Assembly (NCBI GenBank): GCA_016937175.1 | Contig: JAFGWL010000035.1 | Span: 1 to 41,538, forward strand | Length of the DNA: 41,538 nucleotides | Direction: 5' to 3' | DNA from: Candidatus Mcinerneyibacteriota bacterium | GTDB taxonomy: Bacteria; Macinerneyibacteriota; Macinerneyibacteria; Macinerneyibacteriales; DSCS01 | Part shown: in pieces, positions 17,679-29,053 of the stretch | Numbering within the stretch: the first letter of the stretch is position 1 | How the letters are laid out: every line of letters begins with the position of its first letter | Notes under the pieces: model-generated | What the model saw: the letters and a program-made list of their open reading frames with translations, nothing else | Databases searched by the model: none | Told to the model about the DNA's origin: nothing | Program-made: the position numbers and the translations under genes

Positions 17679-19040
17679 ATGACATTTCTTATCTTAGCCG
17701 GAGGAAGCGGAAAACGGCTCTTTCCCCTGAGCCGGGATAAATTCCCGAAGCAGTTCCTTTCTCTGACAGGAGAGAATTCCCTCCTCGGGGAGACTCTTCT
17801 CCGGACGCGTGAGGAGCCTTTTCTTCTTATCGGGAACCAGGCAAGCCTTCACCTCCTCCGGAAGGAAGTGAAGAAGATGAAGGCCGACAAGCGCGGCGAA
17901 GTCATCGCAGAGCCGTTCGGGAGGAATACAGCACCTGCCATCCTTTTGGGCCTTTCCCGTATCCCTGATAATGATATCGTTGCGGTAATCCCTTCGGACC
18001 ACTTCATCAAAGAGACAGAAAAGTTCTGGAAAACTCTTCAGGACGCCGTAGAGCTGGCCCGAGCCGGTTACATCACTACCTTGGGGGTCACTCCCGAAAG
18101 GCCTGAGACGGGATACGGTTATATCAAAAAAGGAGCACCCCTGAGTAGAGGATTCAAAGTCGGCGCCTTTAAGGAAAAACCCGATGCCGAAACAGCGGAA
18201 AAGTATCTTCAAGAGGGAAACACGCTGTGGAATTCGGGGATGTTTGTCTTTGAGAAAAGGGCCATGGTGGAAGAGATCAGGGCCCTTCATCCGGATCTGT
18301 ATCGTTTTTATATTGCCGTTAAAGGGGCTTCCCCGGAGGACTGGAAAGAGATCTATAAAAAGGCTCCGGATATCTCCATAGACTATGCTGTTATGGAGAA
18401 GACAGAAAAAGCTGCTGTCGTAGAGGGGGATTTCGGATGGACCGATATCGGCAGCTGGGAGGCCCTGAAAAGATTTCTGGCGCCGGAAGAGGGGAATGCC
18501 GCGCTGAAGACAGAGCTCTATTCCATGGACAGCCATGACAATCTTGTCATCACGAGGGATAAAAGCGTGGGGTTGATCGGCGTTCGGGAGACCGCTGTCA
18601 TCGATACCGGGGATTTTCTTCTGGTCGGAGACCTCAGACGTTCCCAGGACGTGAAAGAGCTGGCTTCCCTTGTACAGGAAAGAGACCCGGGGACAGCGGA
18701 AGCCCATAAAGATGAAGTACGGCCCTGGGGGAGTTTTACATCCCTGGATGAAGAAACGGGGTTTAAAGTTAAAAAAATCGTTGTCTCTTCCGGGGAACGC
18801 CTCTCCCTCCAGTATCATCATCAGAGGGACGAAGACTGGATCATCGTCCGGGGAGAAGGCCTGATGACATTGGGCAGCCGTACCTTTCCCGTCAAGGCGG
18901 GAGACCATGTCCACATCCCGAGAGAAGAGACCCATACAATCGAAGGAGTGACTGAGACGGTCTTTATCGAAGTCCAGAGGGGCGAGTATCTGGGTGAAGA
19001 CGATATCGTCCGCCTTGAAGACCGATATGGACGGACGTAA
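17679..19040 (+). CDS. manC: mannose-1-phosphate guanylyltransferase / mannose-6-phosphate isomerase
   Basis: A 453-aa type II bifunctional enzyme that makes GDP-mannose for surface polysaccharide. The N-terminal nucleotidyltransferase (about 1-270) has LILAGGSGKRLFPLSRDKFPKQ (4-25) and the sugar-binding FKEKPD near 168. A linker leads to a C-terminal cupin isomerase (about 340-453) with SLQYHHQRDEDWIIVRG and HIPREETHTI metal-site residues. The ribosome site AAAGGAG supports the start. It is a single gene; the TAA lies inside the first upstream dyad of the heat-shock promoter. Confidence 0.95.
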   Translation: MTFLILAGGSGKRLFPLSRDKFPKQFLSLTGENSLLGETLLRTREEPFLLIGNQASLHLLRKEVKKMKADKRGEVIAEPFGRNTAPAILLGLSRIPDNDIVAVIPSDHFIKETEKFWKTLQDAVELARAGYITTLGVTPERPETGYGYIKKGAPLSRGFKVGAFKEKPDAETAEKYLQEGNTLWNSGMFVFEKRAMVEEIRALHPDLYRFYIAVKGASPEDWKEIYKKAPDISIDYAVMEKTEKAAVVEGDFGWTDIGSWEALKRFLAPEEGNAALKTELYSMDSHDNLVITRDKSVGLIGVRETAVIDTGDFLLVGDLRRSQDVKELASLVQERDPGTAEAHKDEVRPWGSFTSLDEETGFKVKKIVVSSGERLSLQYHHQRDEDWIIVRGEGLMTLGSRTFPVKAGDHVHIPREETHTIEGVTETVFIEVQRGEYLGEDDIVRLEDRYGRT

Positions 19041-19103
19041 TGTCCGTTTATTAGACAACTGTCTTGTATTTGGACTAATTGTCTATTTTTCGGACAGTTG
19101 TTT
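19033..19103 (+). promoter_or_regulatory. four evenly spaced dyads, putative enhancer-binding sites
   Basis: Four dyads of the form RGAC-N4/5-GTYY: 19033-19045 (GGACGTAATGTCC), 19053-19064 (AGACAACTGTCT), 19072-19084 (GGACTAATTGTCT) and 19092-19103 (GGACAGTTGTTT). Their centres are about 19.5 bases apart throughout. They lie about 100-170 bases upstream of the sigma-54 -12 element, the usual place for activator (bEBP) sites. The first overlaps the manC stop and extends to ACGGAC/GTCCGT, so it could also be a weak terminator stem. Confidence 0.6.
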
Positions 19104-19191
19104 GCACGGGTAAAACTAACCCTAATTTTACTATTACTTCTATCTCCTTTATATTCTTATAATTAGCTTATTCATCCAGAAGGCCGAGATT

Positions 19192-19207
19192 TGGCACGGT
19201 CTTTGCT
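19192..19207 (+). promoter_or_regulatory. sigma-54 promoter of the small heat-shock operon
   Basis: TGGCAC (19192-19197), N5 and TTGCT (19203-19207) is an exact match to the -24/-12 consensus, with GG and GC 10 bases apart. It lies 31 bases before the ATG at 19238. No sigma-70-like promoter or CIRCE element was seen in the same gap. Confidence 0.85.
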
Positions 19208-19237
19208 AAATTATAAGAGAAAAAAAGGAGGTGTGTT

Positions 19238-19711
19238 ATGAAACCTGTCAAGAGAAGTGATGAAAAGAGGATGGATGTGGCACGTCGGTATGACCCTTTC
19301 AGAGACTTCTTCGACGAATTCGAATCGATGTTCGAGGACTTTTTCCGTCCCGGCCTTGTAAGCCGGACGGAAGATTCCCCGGCTTTGATCCATGCAGATA
19401 TAGGGGAAGATGATGAGAAATATATGGTCAGGGCGGCGCTTCCCGGCATGGATGAAAAGAACATCAAAGTGAGTGTCGAAGACGGCGTCCTCTCTATTCA
19501 GGCGGAGCGGAAAGAAGAGGAGAGTGAAGAGAAGAAGGGCTATTTCCGACGGGAGATCGGGTACGGAAGGTATGAACGCCGGTTCCGCCTCCCGGATAAT
19601 GTCAATCTGGACAAGGTCGATGCCCGTTACAAAAACGGCATCCTGGATATCGACTTACCGAAAAAAGAAAAAGGGATGTCCAAAAAAGAGATCAAGGTCA
19701 AAGGGGCCTGA
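19238..19711 (+). CDS. small heat-shock protein (Hsp20/alpha-crystallin)
   Basis: A 157-aa chaperone. The N-terminal arm is rich in Phe and acidic residues (DPFRDFFDEFESMFEDFF, about 19-36). The alpha-crystallin domain spans about 48-148 and holds VRAALPGMDEKNI and the conserved ARYKNGILDIDLPK. The C-terminal KEIKV is an IxI/V-type assembly motif. AAAGGAGG precedes the ATG. It is expressed from a sigma-54 promoter, so it probably responds to a signal sensed by an enhancer-binding protein rather than by HrcA or sigma-32. Cytoplasmic holdase that forms oligomers, perhaps with the next gene's product. Confidence 0.95.
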   Translation: MKPVKRSDEKRMDVARRYDPFRDFFDEFESMFEDFFRPGLVSRTEDSPALIHADIGEDDEKYMVRAALPGMDEKNIKVSVEDGVLSIQAERKEEESEEKKGYFRREIGYGRYERRFRLPDNVNLDKVDARYKNGILDIDLPKKEKGMSKKEIKVKGA

Positions 19712-19723
19712 GCCCCTTTGACC
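19696..19723 (+). promoter_or_regulatory. 12-bp hairpin spanning the stop codon between the two Hsp20 genes
   Basis: A perfect 12-bp stem (19696-19707 with 19712-19723) around a CTGA loop that contains the first gene's stop. There is no T-run, so it is not a standard terminator. The second gene's AAGGAG site follows 8 bases later. It may stabilise or process the mRNA and set the ratio of the two chaperones. Confidence 0.6.
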
Positions 19724-19740
19724 CTGGGTAAGGAGCAGAT

Positions 19741-20106
19741 ATGACTGTTATCGCATTGAACAGGTGTTATCCCGGAATACGGGAAAAAGAAGCAGAGATC
19801 GAGGCTGTCGTAGGACAGACCGATGAAGGCTTTGAGGTCAGGGCAGCCCTGCCCGGTGTGGACAAAGAGAAGATCACTCTTTTTGTGGACAGCGGACGTC
19901 TGGTGATCAAGGCCCTGCGAGAGTCCTCCTTTGCCCAAGGACGGGAGATACGGCGGGAACTGGCTCAAGGCGAGATGAAAAAAGAGTACTACCTTCCAGA
20001 GTCCGTCGACGTGGACAATGTCTCTGCACGATTTGAAAACGGGATTCTCTCTGTCCGGTTACCTTTGAGACAACAATCCGGCCCCAGAGCCGTTTCCATA
20101 GAATAG
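19741..20106 (+). CDS. second small heat-shock protein (Hsp20), short form
   Basis: A 121-aa Hsp20-like protein, about 35 residues shorter than its neighbour. The N-terminal arm is reduced to about 25 residues. The alpha-crystallin core has VRAALPGVDKEKI and ARFENGILSVRLP, the same signatures as the first gene, and ends VSIE. An AAGGAG site lies 5 bases upstream. It is co-transcribed with the first Hsp20 gene and ends in a strong terminator. The pair probably arose by duplication and may form mixed oligomers. Confidence 0.92.
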   Translation: MTVIALNRCYPGIREKEAEIEAVVGQTDEGFEVRAALPGVDKEKITLFVDSGRLVIKALRESSFAQGREIRRELAQGEMKKEYYLPESVDVDNVSARFENGILSVRLPLRQQSGPRAVSIE

Positions 20107-20121: not shown

Positions 20122-20150
20122 AGGGCGGGTTTCCCGCCCTTTTTTTTATT
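20122..20150 (+). terminator. terminator of the Hsp20 operon
   Basis: AGGGCGGG/CCCGCCCT stem (20122-20129 with 20133-20140), TTT loop and a run of nine T. A classic intrinsic terminator. Confidence 0.95.
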
Positions 20151-26958: not shown

Positions 26959-29053
26959 TCTGCTTCTTGAAATCGGAGTGGAAGAGCTCCCTGCTGATTA
27001 TATTCCCGGCGCCATAGCGTCCCTTGAAGCGCAGTTCCGGCGTCTTTTTGAAGAAAACCGCATCACTGTGGGATCAAGTGAAGCCCTGGCTACTCCCCGG
27101 CGGCTGGTCTTCTTCTGTCGTGGGGTAGCCGAAAAGGAAGAGGACCGGACAGAAAAGGTCATGGGGCCGCCCCGGAACATCTGTATCAAAGAGGGTAAAG
27201 CCACCATGGCCTATGAAAAGTTTTTGGAAAAAAACAATTTGACTGAGAGTGATATCTTCTGGGAAGAGACGGAGAAAGGGGCCTATCTTGCGGCTCACCG
27301 CTTTGTCCCCGGACGTATGACCCGGCAGATTATCACGGAGGCATGGCCCGGGATCCTGGGTGCTGTGGAATTCCCCAAAAAAATGCGTTGGGATGACAGC
27401 GGCCTTCTTTTCGCCCGTCCCGTGCGTTGGTTGCTGGCTTTCTGGGGGGAAGAGATACTTCCTCTGAAAGCAGGAGGGGTGACAGTGGGGCAGGAGACAT
27501 TCCTTCTTCGGAACAGCCCGGAAAAAAGGGCTCGCGTCAGCAGCCCTGCCACTTATTTTGAGGTAGTGGAAAAGAGCGGCCTTATCCTTTCGAGGGAGCG
27601 CCGGAGAAAGGTGATTCTGGAGGGTCTGCAGGCTGTTCTCGAGAAGAGCGGGGCCTCTTCCTTTCATTCGGAGTCCCTGGTCGAGGAAGTCGTGGACCTA
27701 GTAGAAGCTCCTTTTGTCTTAACCGGGGAGATCGAGAAACACTATCTGGCCCTGCCCCCTGAAGTCATTTCGGCGGCTATGAGCCAGCATCAGCGTTATT
27801 TCAGCTTTTACAGAGAGGGGAAGGTCCTTCCTCTCTTTGCCTTTGTGGCGAATGGCAGCTTTGTCCATCCCGGAAAGGTCATCCGGGGTAATGAGAGAGT
27901 CCTTAAAGCCCGGCTTGACGATGCCATGTTCTACTGGAAAGAGGATACATCCAGAGGTGTGGAAAGATTATTCGATTTGCTGGATACAGTGACGTGGATG
28001 GAGGGGCTCGGGTCTCTGAGTGAAAAGGCAGCCAGGCTGGAAAGTCTCACCGCCTTTCTTTTCGACGGGGATGAGACAGCCCGGACCGGGGCCAGGATGT
28101 CCAAGATCGATATCGTGTCTGAAATGATCAAAGACGGAAAAGAATTTACCAAGCTTCAGGGGTCCATCGCCAAGTATTACCTTCTGGAAGACGGCCGGGA
28201 AGAAGAAGTCGCCTGTATCGCCGAGGAGCACTACTGGCCCAGGGTCTGGGGAGATTCTCTGCCTCGCCCCCGTGCTGCCGCCGTGGGCCTTGCCGACCGG
28301 GCCGATAATATTATCGGGGCTTTCCTTAAAGGTTTTATCCCCACAGGGACAAAAGACCCCTATGCTTTGCGCCGTCAGGCCAACAGCATGATCGCGCTGA
28401 TTTTGGGTTATGAGAAGGGAGAGGTCCATTTAGATAAAGGGTTCGATCTTGAATCTGTCCAGGAGCTCTTCATAAAGACAGCCCGGCTTTACGGGGTGGA
28501 GGTTCTCCCTCCGAAGGAAGAACCTGAACTTTTGAGGCAGGTCAACGATTTTTTCGAAGACCGGTTCCGCGCGCAGCTGAGAGCCCTGGGTATCCCCTAT
28601 GATATAGTCGATGCTGTCTGCGATACCCCTGAAAAGGACCTGAAAGTGAAATACAGGAAGGCTCTTGCCTTCAAGGCCCTCTCTGGAAGAGACGAGTTCC
28701 GGGATGTGGCCGCCACTTTCCGGCGGGTGAATAATATTGTTAAAAAGGCGCGTGAAGAACTTAGGGTAGAAGATTTCGGGCCGCCCCGGGATGATCTCTT
28801 TGTGGAGAAAGAGACAAAGGCTATGAGCCGGGAGTGGGTCAAAGTCAAAGAGGAGATCCAAAGGGCGGGGGATGATTATGACCGTATCTTTAATGCGATC
28901 CTCTATTTCAAGACGTTGGTGGATCCCTTTTTTGATACGGTTCTTGTCATGGATAAAGACGAGTCCTTGCGGAATAACCGTTTGGCTCTTCTTCAGGATA
29001 TATCCGCTCTTTTCGGAGGAATTGTTAATTTCGACCATATTGTCGTGACATGA
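26951..29053 (+). CDS. glyS: glycyl-tRNA synthetase beta subunit
   Basis: A 700-aa beta subunit that holds the tRNA-binding parts, including an HD-like and an anticodon-binding (DALR-type) C-terminal domain. It opens [20 protein letters not shown] and has [16 protein letters not shown] (about 138-145), [17 protein letters not shown]-like helical segments and [13 protein letters not shown] (about 461-473). The ATG at 26951 follows GGTGAGG; an in-frame GTG at 26942 is less likely. Needs GlyQ for activity. Confidence 0.97.

Follow-up and report, generated by a model that had tools for sequence, protein, structure and literature searches.

Small heat-shock genes have been placed under sigma-54 before. 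In phage-shock control, a stress operon under sigma-54 is driven by PspF, an enhancer-binding protein (bEBP) without a sensor domain. The E. coli ibpB gene has a sigma-54 promoter (Allen 1992; Kuczynska-Wisnik 2001, both as cited in PMC4316790), and a 2025 survey predicts sigma-54 control for a group of targets that includes IbpA (COG0071) and is enriched in Planctomycetota and Bacteroidota (PMC12316311). By these two sources, small heat-shock genes under sigma-54 are already known as a kind.

The locus described here lies in the window, a stretch of 41,538 nucleotides from a Candidatus Mcinerneyibacteriota bacterium. As in ibpB, a small heat-shock gene stands behind a sigma-54 promoter. However, E. 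coli ibpAB is also under sigma-32 and carries its sigma-54 promoter before the second gene (PMC4316790), whereas the promoter in the window precedes the first gene and is accompanied by an array of dyads. The 2025 survey resembles our analysis in making genome-scale predictions of -24/-12 sites before chaperone genes, but the accessible text of PMC12316311 gives no upstream activator motif for hsp20, and the lineage of the window is another one. An earlier note on this DNA had proposed sigma-54 control and implied that it was new. The control gained support from rpoN, six bEBPs and a kept register in a relative, but the novelty falls to ibpB (PMC4316790) and the survey (PMC12316311).

Results

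The hsp20 operon is separated from manC by 197 bases, and both of its genes score above the PF00011 cut-off for the Hsp20/alpha-crystallin family (Table 1). The exact -24/-12 promoter that the earlier note had placed ahead of this pair is present. It has GG at -24 and GC at -12, as expected of a sigma-54 promoter, and 30 bases separate it from the ATG of Hsp20-1 (19238). There are three exact TGGCAC-N5-TTGCW sites in the 1.88-Mb genome, before hsp20, pilA and a pilin-like gene.

Table 1. Coordinates of the hsp20 locus in the window, and the bEBP genes of the genome
Feature	Position	Strand	Remarks
manC	17679-19040	+	gene preceding the hsp20 pair; ORF end 19040
Dyad D1, GGAC-GTAAT-GTCC	19033-19045	+	covers the manC stop codon; missing in the same-genus relative
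Dyad D2, AGAC-AACT-GTCT	19053-19064	+	position kept in the relative (GGAC-ATGT-GTAG)
Dyad D3, GGAC-TAATT-GTCT	19072-19084	+	kept in the relative (AGAC-ACAGT-GTCC, 8/8)
Dyad D4, GGAC-AGTT-GTTT	19092-19103	+	degenerate in the relative (AAAC-ATTT-TTTT, 6/8)
Sigma-54 -24/-12 element, TGGCACGGTCTTTGCT	19192-19207	+	consensus TGGCAC-GGTCT-TTGCT
Hsp20-1, 157 aa	19238-19711	+	PF00011, E 2.9e-26
Hairpin spanning the Hsp20-1 stop codon	19693-19726	+	lies between the two hsp20 genes; MFE -25.1 kcal/mol, z -4.3
Hsp20-2, 121 aa	19741-20106	+	PF00011, E 1.3e-16
Intrinsic-terminator-like site closing the operon	20122-20148	+	also delimited as 20122-20140
bEBP on C59			PAS bEBP adjoining a NifX/Mrp-like cluster
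bEBP on C6			after a histidine kinase gene
bEBP on C26			response regulator
bEBP on C30	L044:3809-4777 (G000:C30)		lacks an N-terminal sensor domain; immediately follows two M42 aminopeptidase genes
Two bEBPs on C71	one copy at 27287		response regulators; one adjoins pil genes

The gap also holds a weak sigma-70-like match, TTTACT-N17-TATATT (19127-19155). Such matches occur about as often as expected by chance, and this one is partly alike in the same-genus relative. If it were the working promoter, the dyads would serve as operators for a repressor, or for some other regulator of that promoter, and the -24/-12 match would be secondary or a second promoter. We think this unlikely, as no block ahead of the ribosome-binding site is better conserved between the window and the relative than the -24/-12 element, and the dyads stay in register with that element. 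They also sit 30-100 bp ahead of the sigma-70-like match and do not overlap it. Judged from the sequence, the -24/-12 site before the first gene appears to be the only convincing promoter of the operon.

The hairpin at the Hsp20-1 stop codon has a 12-bp stem and is found in the relative too, where G-C takes the place of one A-T pair and there is one bulge. It could keep the Hsp20-1 transcript above that of Hsp20-2.

The dyads are of the type RGAC-N5/4/5/4-GTYY and lie ahead of the -24 element, at distances of 94-153 bp. Their centres, at 19039, 19058.5, 19078 and 19097.5, follow an even step of 19.5 bp; every centre given in the earlier note was reproduced exactly, as was the overlap of the first dyad with the manC stop. 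The proposal that the dyads, about two turns apart, share one face of the helix survived only in part. Neighbouring half-sites of adjacent dyads are a constant 11 bp apart, or about one turn. At 10.5 bp per turn, a step of 19.5 bp amounts to 1.86 turns. Each dyad is thus rotated by about 51 degrees from the last, which adds up to about 154 degrees along the array, so the dyads lie on one face only approximately.

Of 100 first-order Markov simulations of the window, none contained two dyads at a 19-20-bp step, whereas the real window has four in a row; the pattern was picked after the site had been seen, so the simulation overstates the difference somewhat, but the margin is still large. Scanning the whole genome for a dyad followed by the next half-site returned 33 matches, compared with 55 for the reversed control. 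The check for further arrays in the genome, suggested in the earlier note, found consecutive matches at this locus only.

The array may have arisen through duplication, as the interval of 39 bp from D1 to D3 recurs between D2 and D4 and the N5/N4 order repeats. Taken further, the promoter would depend on sigma-54 but the dyads would be a decaying tandem duplication with no role, and the bEBP would act from elsewhere or without specific DNA binding. The missing D1 and weak D4 of the relative fit this account. It nevertheless seems improbable to us, as the relative keeps three dyad positions in register with the promoter, and dyads are again found upstream of sigma-54 hsp20 genes in other genomes, in some cases as tandem copies with a step of about 20 bp.

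The conservation test rests on a single same-genus genome, G001, whose promoter before hsp20 is TGGCACGTCTCTTGCT. Its dyads lie at -132.5, -113 and -93.5 from the TGG, compared with -133.5, -114 and -94.5 in the window, and have the spacers N4/N5/N4, the same as D2-D4. A three-dyad template matched 20 of 24 consensus positions at offset +1, a score reached by 0 of 100000 shuffles, while no other offset gave more than 12. Identity across the gap was 67% in half-site columns and 45% in other columns, a modest difference (p 0.04). Aligning the gap between relatives, as the earlier note had advised, thus recovered the promoter and three dyad positions in register but not the first dyad, which G001 has lost. 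Apart from this loss of D1, none of the earlier note's refuting conditions that genome data could address was borne out. The register counts as support, not proof, since identity by descent contributes to it.

A public MAG contig, DSCS01000071.1, has an Hsp20 at 81% identity, the same value as for G001, and keeps the order manC, both hsp20 genes, ylxM and ffh; it probably belongs to the G001 genome. G002, a genome of the same taxonomic order, has another exact sigma-54 site, TGGCACAATCATTGCT, ahead of its hsp20, and no recognisable RGAC array was found upstream of that gene.

The search for rpoN and for bEBPs that the earlier note had called for found rpoN and the six bEBPs of Table 1. Each of the six has an orthologue in G001, and five have one in G002; the C30 bEBP is represented in both. 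Two other upstream regions carry dyads of different types, read by eye. A sigma-54-like promoter precedes pilA together with a TGTAAC/GTTACA-type dyad (L020, L123), and another precedes the NifX-like cluster together with a TTGCA/TGCAA-type dyad (L040, L125), in both species in each case.

If these dyads are owned by the neighbouring bEBPs, four bEBPs are left for hsp20, and by elimination the candidates would be those of C30, C6 and C26 and the C71 copy at 27287. The sensorless C30 bEBP is a weak first choice, and on balance a doubtful one. It resembles PspF in being a candidate activator without an N-terminal sensor domain for a stress operon under sigma-54, but it falls far below the PspF cut-off (245.5 against 443.6) and does not stand beside the hsp20 operon.

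Other approaches linked no bEBP to the array. No bEBP adjoins hsp20 in 20 loci with sigma-54 hsp20 genes, the one bEBP in the neighbourhood being about 5.8 kb away. Trees of bEBPs, searched for an orthologue shared across lineages, gave no single clade, and no copies of the array were found near bEBP operons. An hsp20-kinase-bEBP cluster in G042 was considered as a lead and set aside, having no strong sigma-54 site.

The genome also encodes HrcA, the apparent regulator of its hrcA-grpE-dnaK chaperone genes. A CIRCE one base off the consensus stands before hrcA-grpE-dnaK (L049:2692-2720 (G000:C48), L109), and the presence of HrcA and this near-perfect operator raises the question of whether hsp20 is an ordinary HrcA/CIRCE or sigma-32 target. 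We consider this barely credible. A search for the CIRCE, TTAGCACTC-N9-GAGTGCTAA, in the hsp20 gap found none, which places the operon outside the HrcA/CIRCE regulon and refutes the CIRCE part of the idea. The HrcA system works through a repressor operator, whereas hsp20 here has a promoter predicted to depend on an activator. With HrcA and CIRCE at hrcA-grpE-dnaK and none at hsp20, the regulation of DnaK seems to be separate from that of Hsp20. A sigma-54 'promoter' match on C48 proved to be the CIRCE itself, which matches the sigma-54 consensus with one mismatch and is a trap for promoter scans.

We surveyed hsp20 upstream regions in other genomes, mostly from different families and related to the window at domain level only. 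In a 60-genome set, strong -24/-12 sites, scoring 18 or more out of 20, were found in 15 of 108 rows, some of which are the same gene twice, compared with about 1 in shuffles. A second set of 100 upstreams, mostly from genomes outside the first 60 although a few rows are not, gave 22 sites at a score of at least 18.5, with 0.5 expected. Among the 4-mers preceding the sigma-54 hsp20 promoters, GACA/TGTC showed the strongest enrichment in the first set, and it was enriched again in the second (43 vs 19).

These upstreams share a palindrome, TGNCA-N3-TGNCA. The 34 sigma-54 hsp20 upstreams hold 14 exact matches, with 0.08 expected; the palindrome was defined on the second set, and four of the 14 come from the first, which was not used for the definition. 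Matches of at least 7/8 occur in 21 of the 34, compared with 9 of 78 upstreams without a strong sigma-54 site. Some genomes have pairs 19-22 bp apart, that is, in tandem at about 20 bp. On this palindrome the window's own dyads stay below 7/8, with D1 and D3 at 5/8 and the relative's D3 at 6/8. What they have in common with it is layout (12-13-bp dyads, steps of about 20 bp and a similar distance to the promoter); the bases are different. The palindrome may resemble the NorR site, GTCA-N3-TGAC; a literature search for this resemblance gave no confirmation.

Discussion

We consider it likely that the two-gene small heat-shock operon is transcribed by sigma-54 RNA polymerase, mainly from the -24/-12 promoter, and that bEBP dimers occupy the dyads 94-153 bp upstream. 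Under some signal the dimers would assemble into a hexamer, which would reach the promoter by a DNA loop and open it through ATP hydrolysis. The outcome would be tight control with little leakage.

Several lines of evidence favour this reading. The promoter fits the consensus and lies at a suitable distance from the start codon, rpoN and bEBPs are present, and the array exceeds chance, stands at the usual distance for an enhancer and keeps its register in G001. The G002 site, the excess in the survey and the recurrent palindromes point the same way, as do the other dyads at the pilA and NifX-cluster sigma-54 promoters. The reading is weakened by the lost D1 and weak D4 of G001, the modest column conservation, the lack of an array in G002, the weak sigma-70-like match and the lack of a linked bEBP.

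The wider pattern across genomes is the most valuable result, and it is a computational one. Promoters of this kind stand ahead of small heat-shock genes across many unrelated bacteria, so sigma-54 control seems to be a common but little-described means of switching on these chaperones. More specifically, we suggest, at somewhat less than an even chance, that the small heat-shock genes of many lineages make up a sigma-54 regulon that has largely gone undescribed. Its recurring TGNCA-N3-TGNCA enhancer, sometimes in tandem at about 20 bp, would be served by a bEBP that senses proteostasis. The lineage of the window would have kept the layout and changed the half-sites. The excess of -24/-12 sites before hsp20 and the recurrent palindrome are new; a search of the open-access literature found no description of this array or of the palindrome.

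If this holds across lineages, holdase chaperones would be gated by an ATP-consuming activator able to integrate a signal other than heat. Within one genome, the holdases, under sigma-54, would be set apart from the DnaK machine, under HrcA. The defined enhancer motif provides a handle for finding the activator. In G114 there are just three bEBPs, and hsp20 is preceded by a pair of exact TGNCA-N3-TGNCA dyads at a distance of 19 bp (L326), which makes it the best genome for identifying the activator.

Sigma-54 may also act through a second sigma factor. A sigma-54-like promoter with one mismatch precedes a sigma-70-family factor gene (G000:C14:3416-3431, - strand, L030; also L124:1501-2302 (G001:C23)), which suggests a cascade from RpoN to an alternative sigma factor. 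The factor has 251 aa in G001, and its nearest models are RpoS and RpoD, with scores below their cut-offs.
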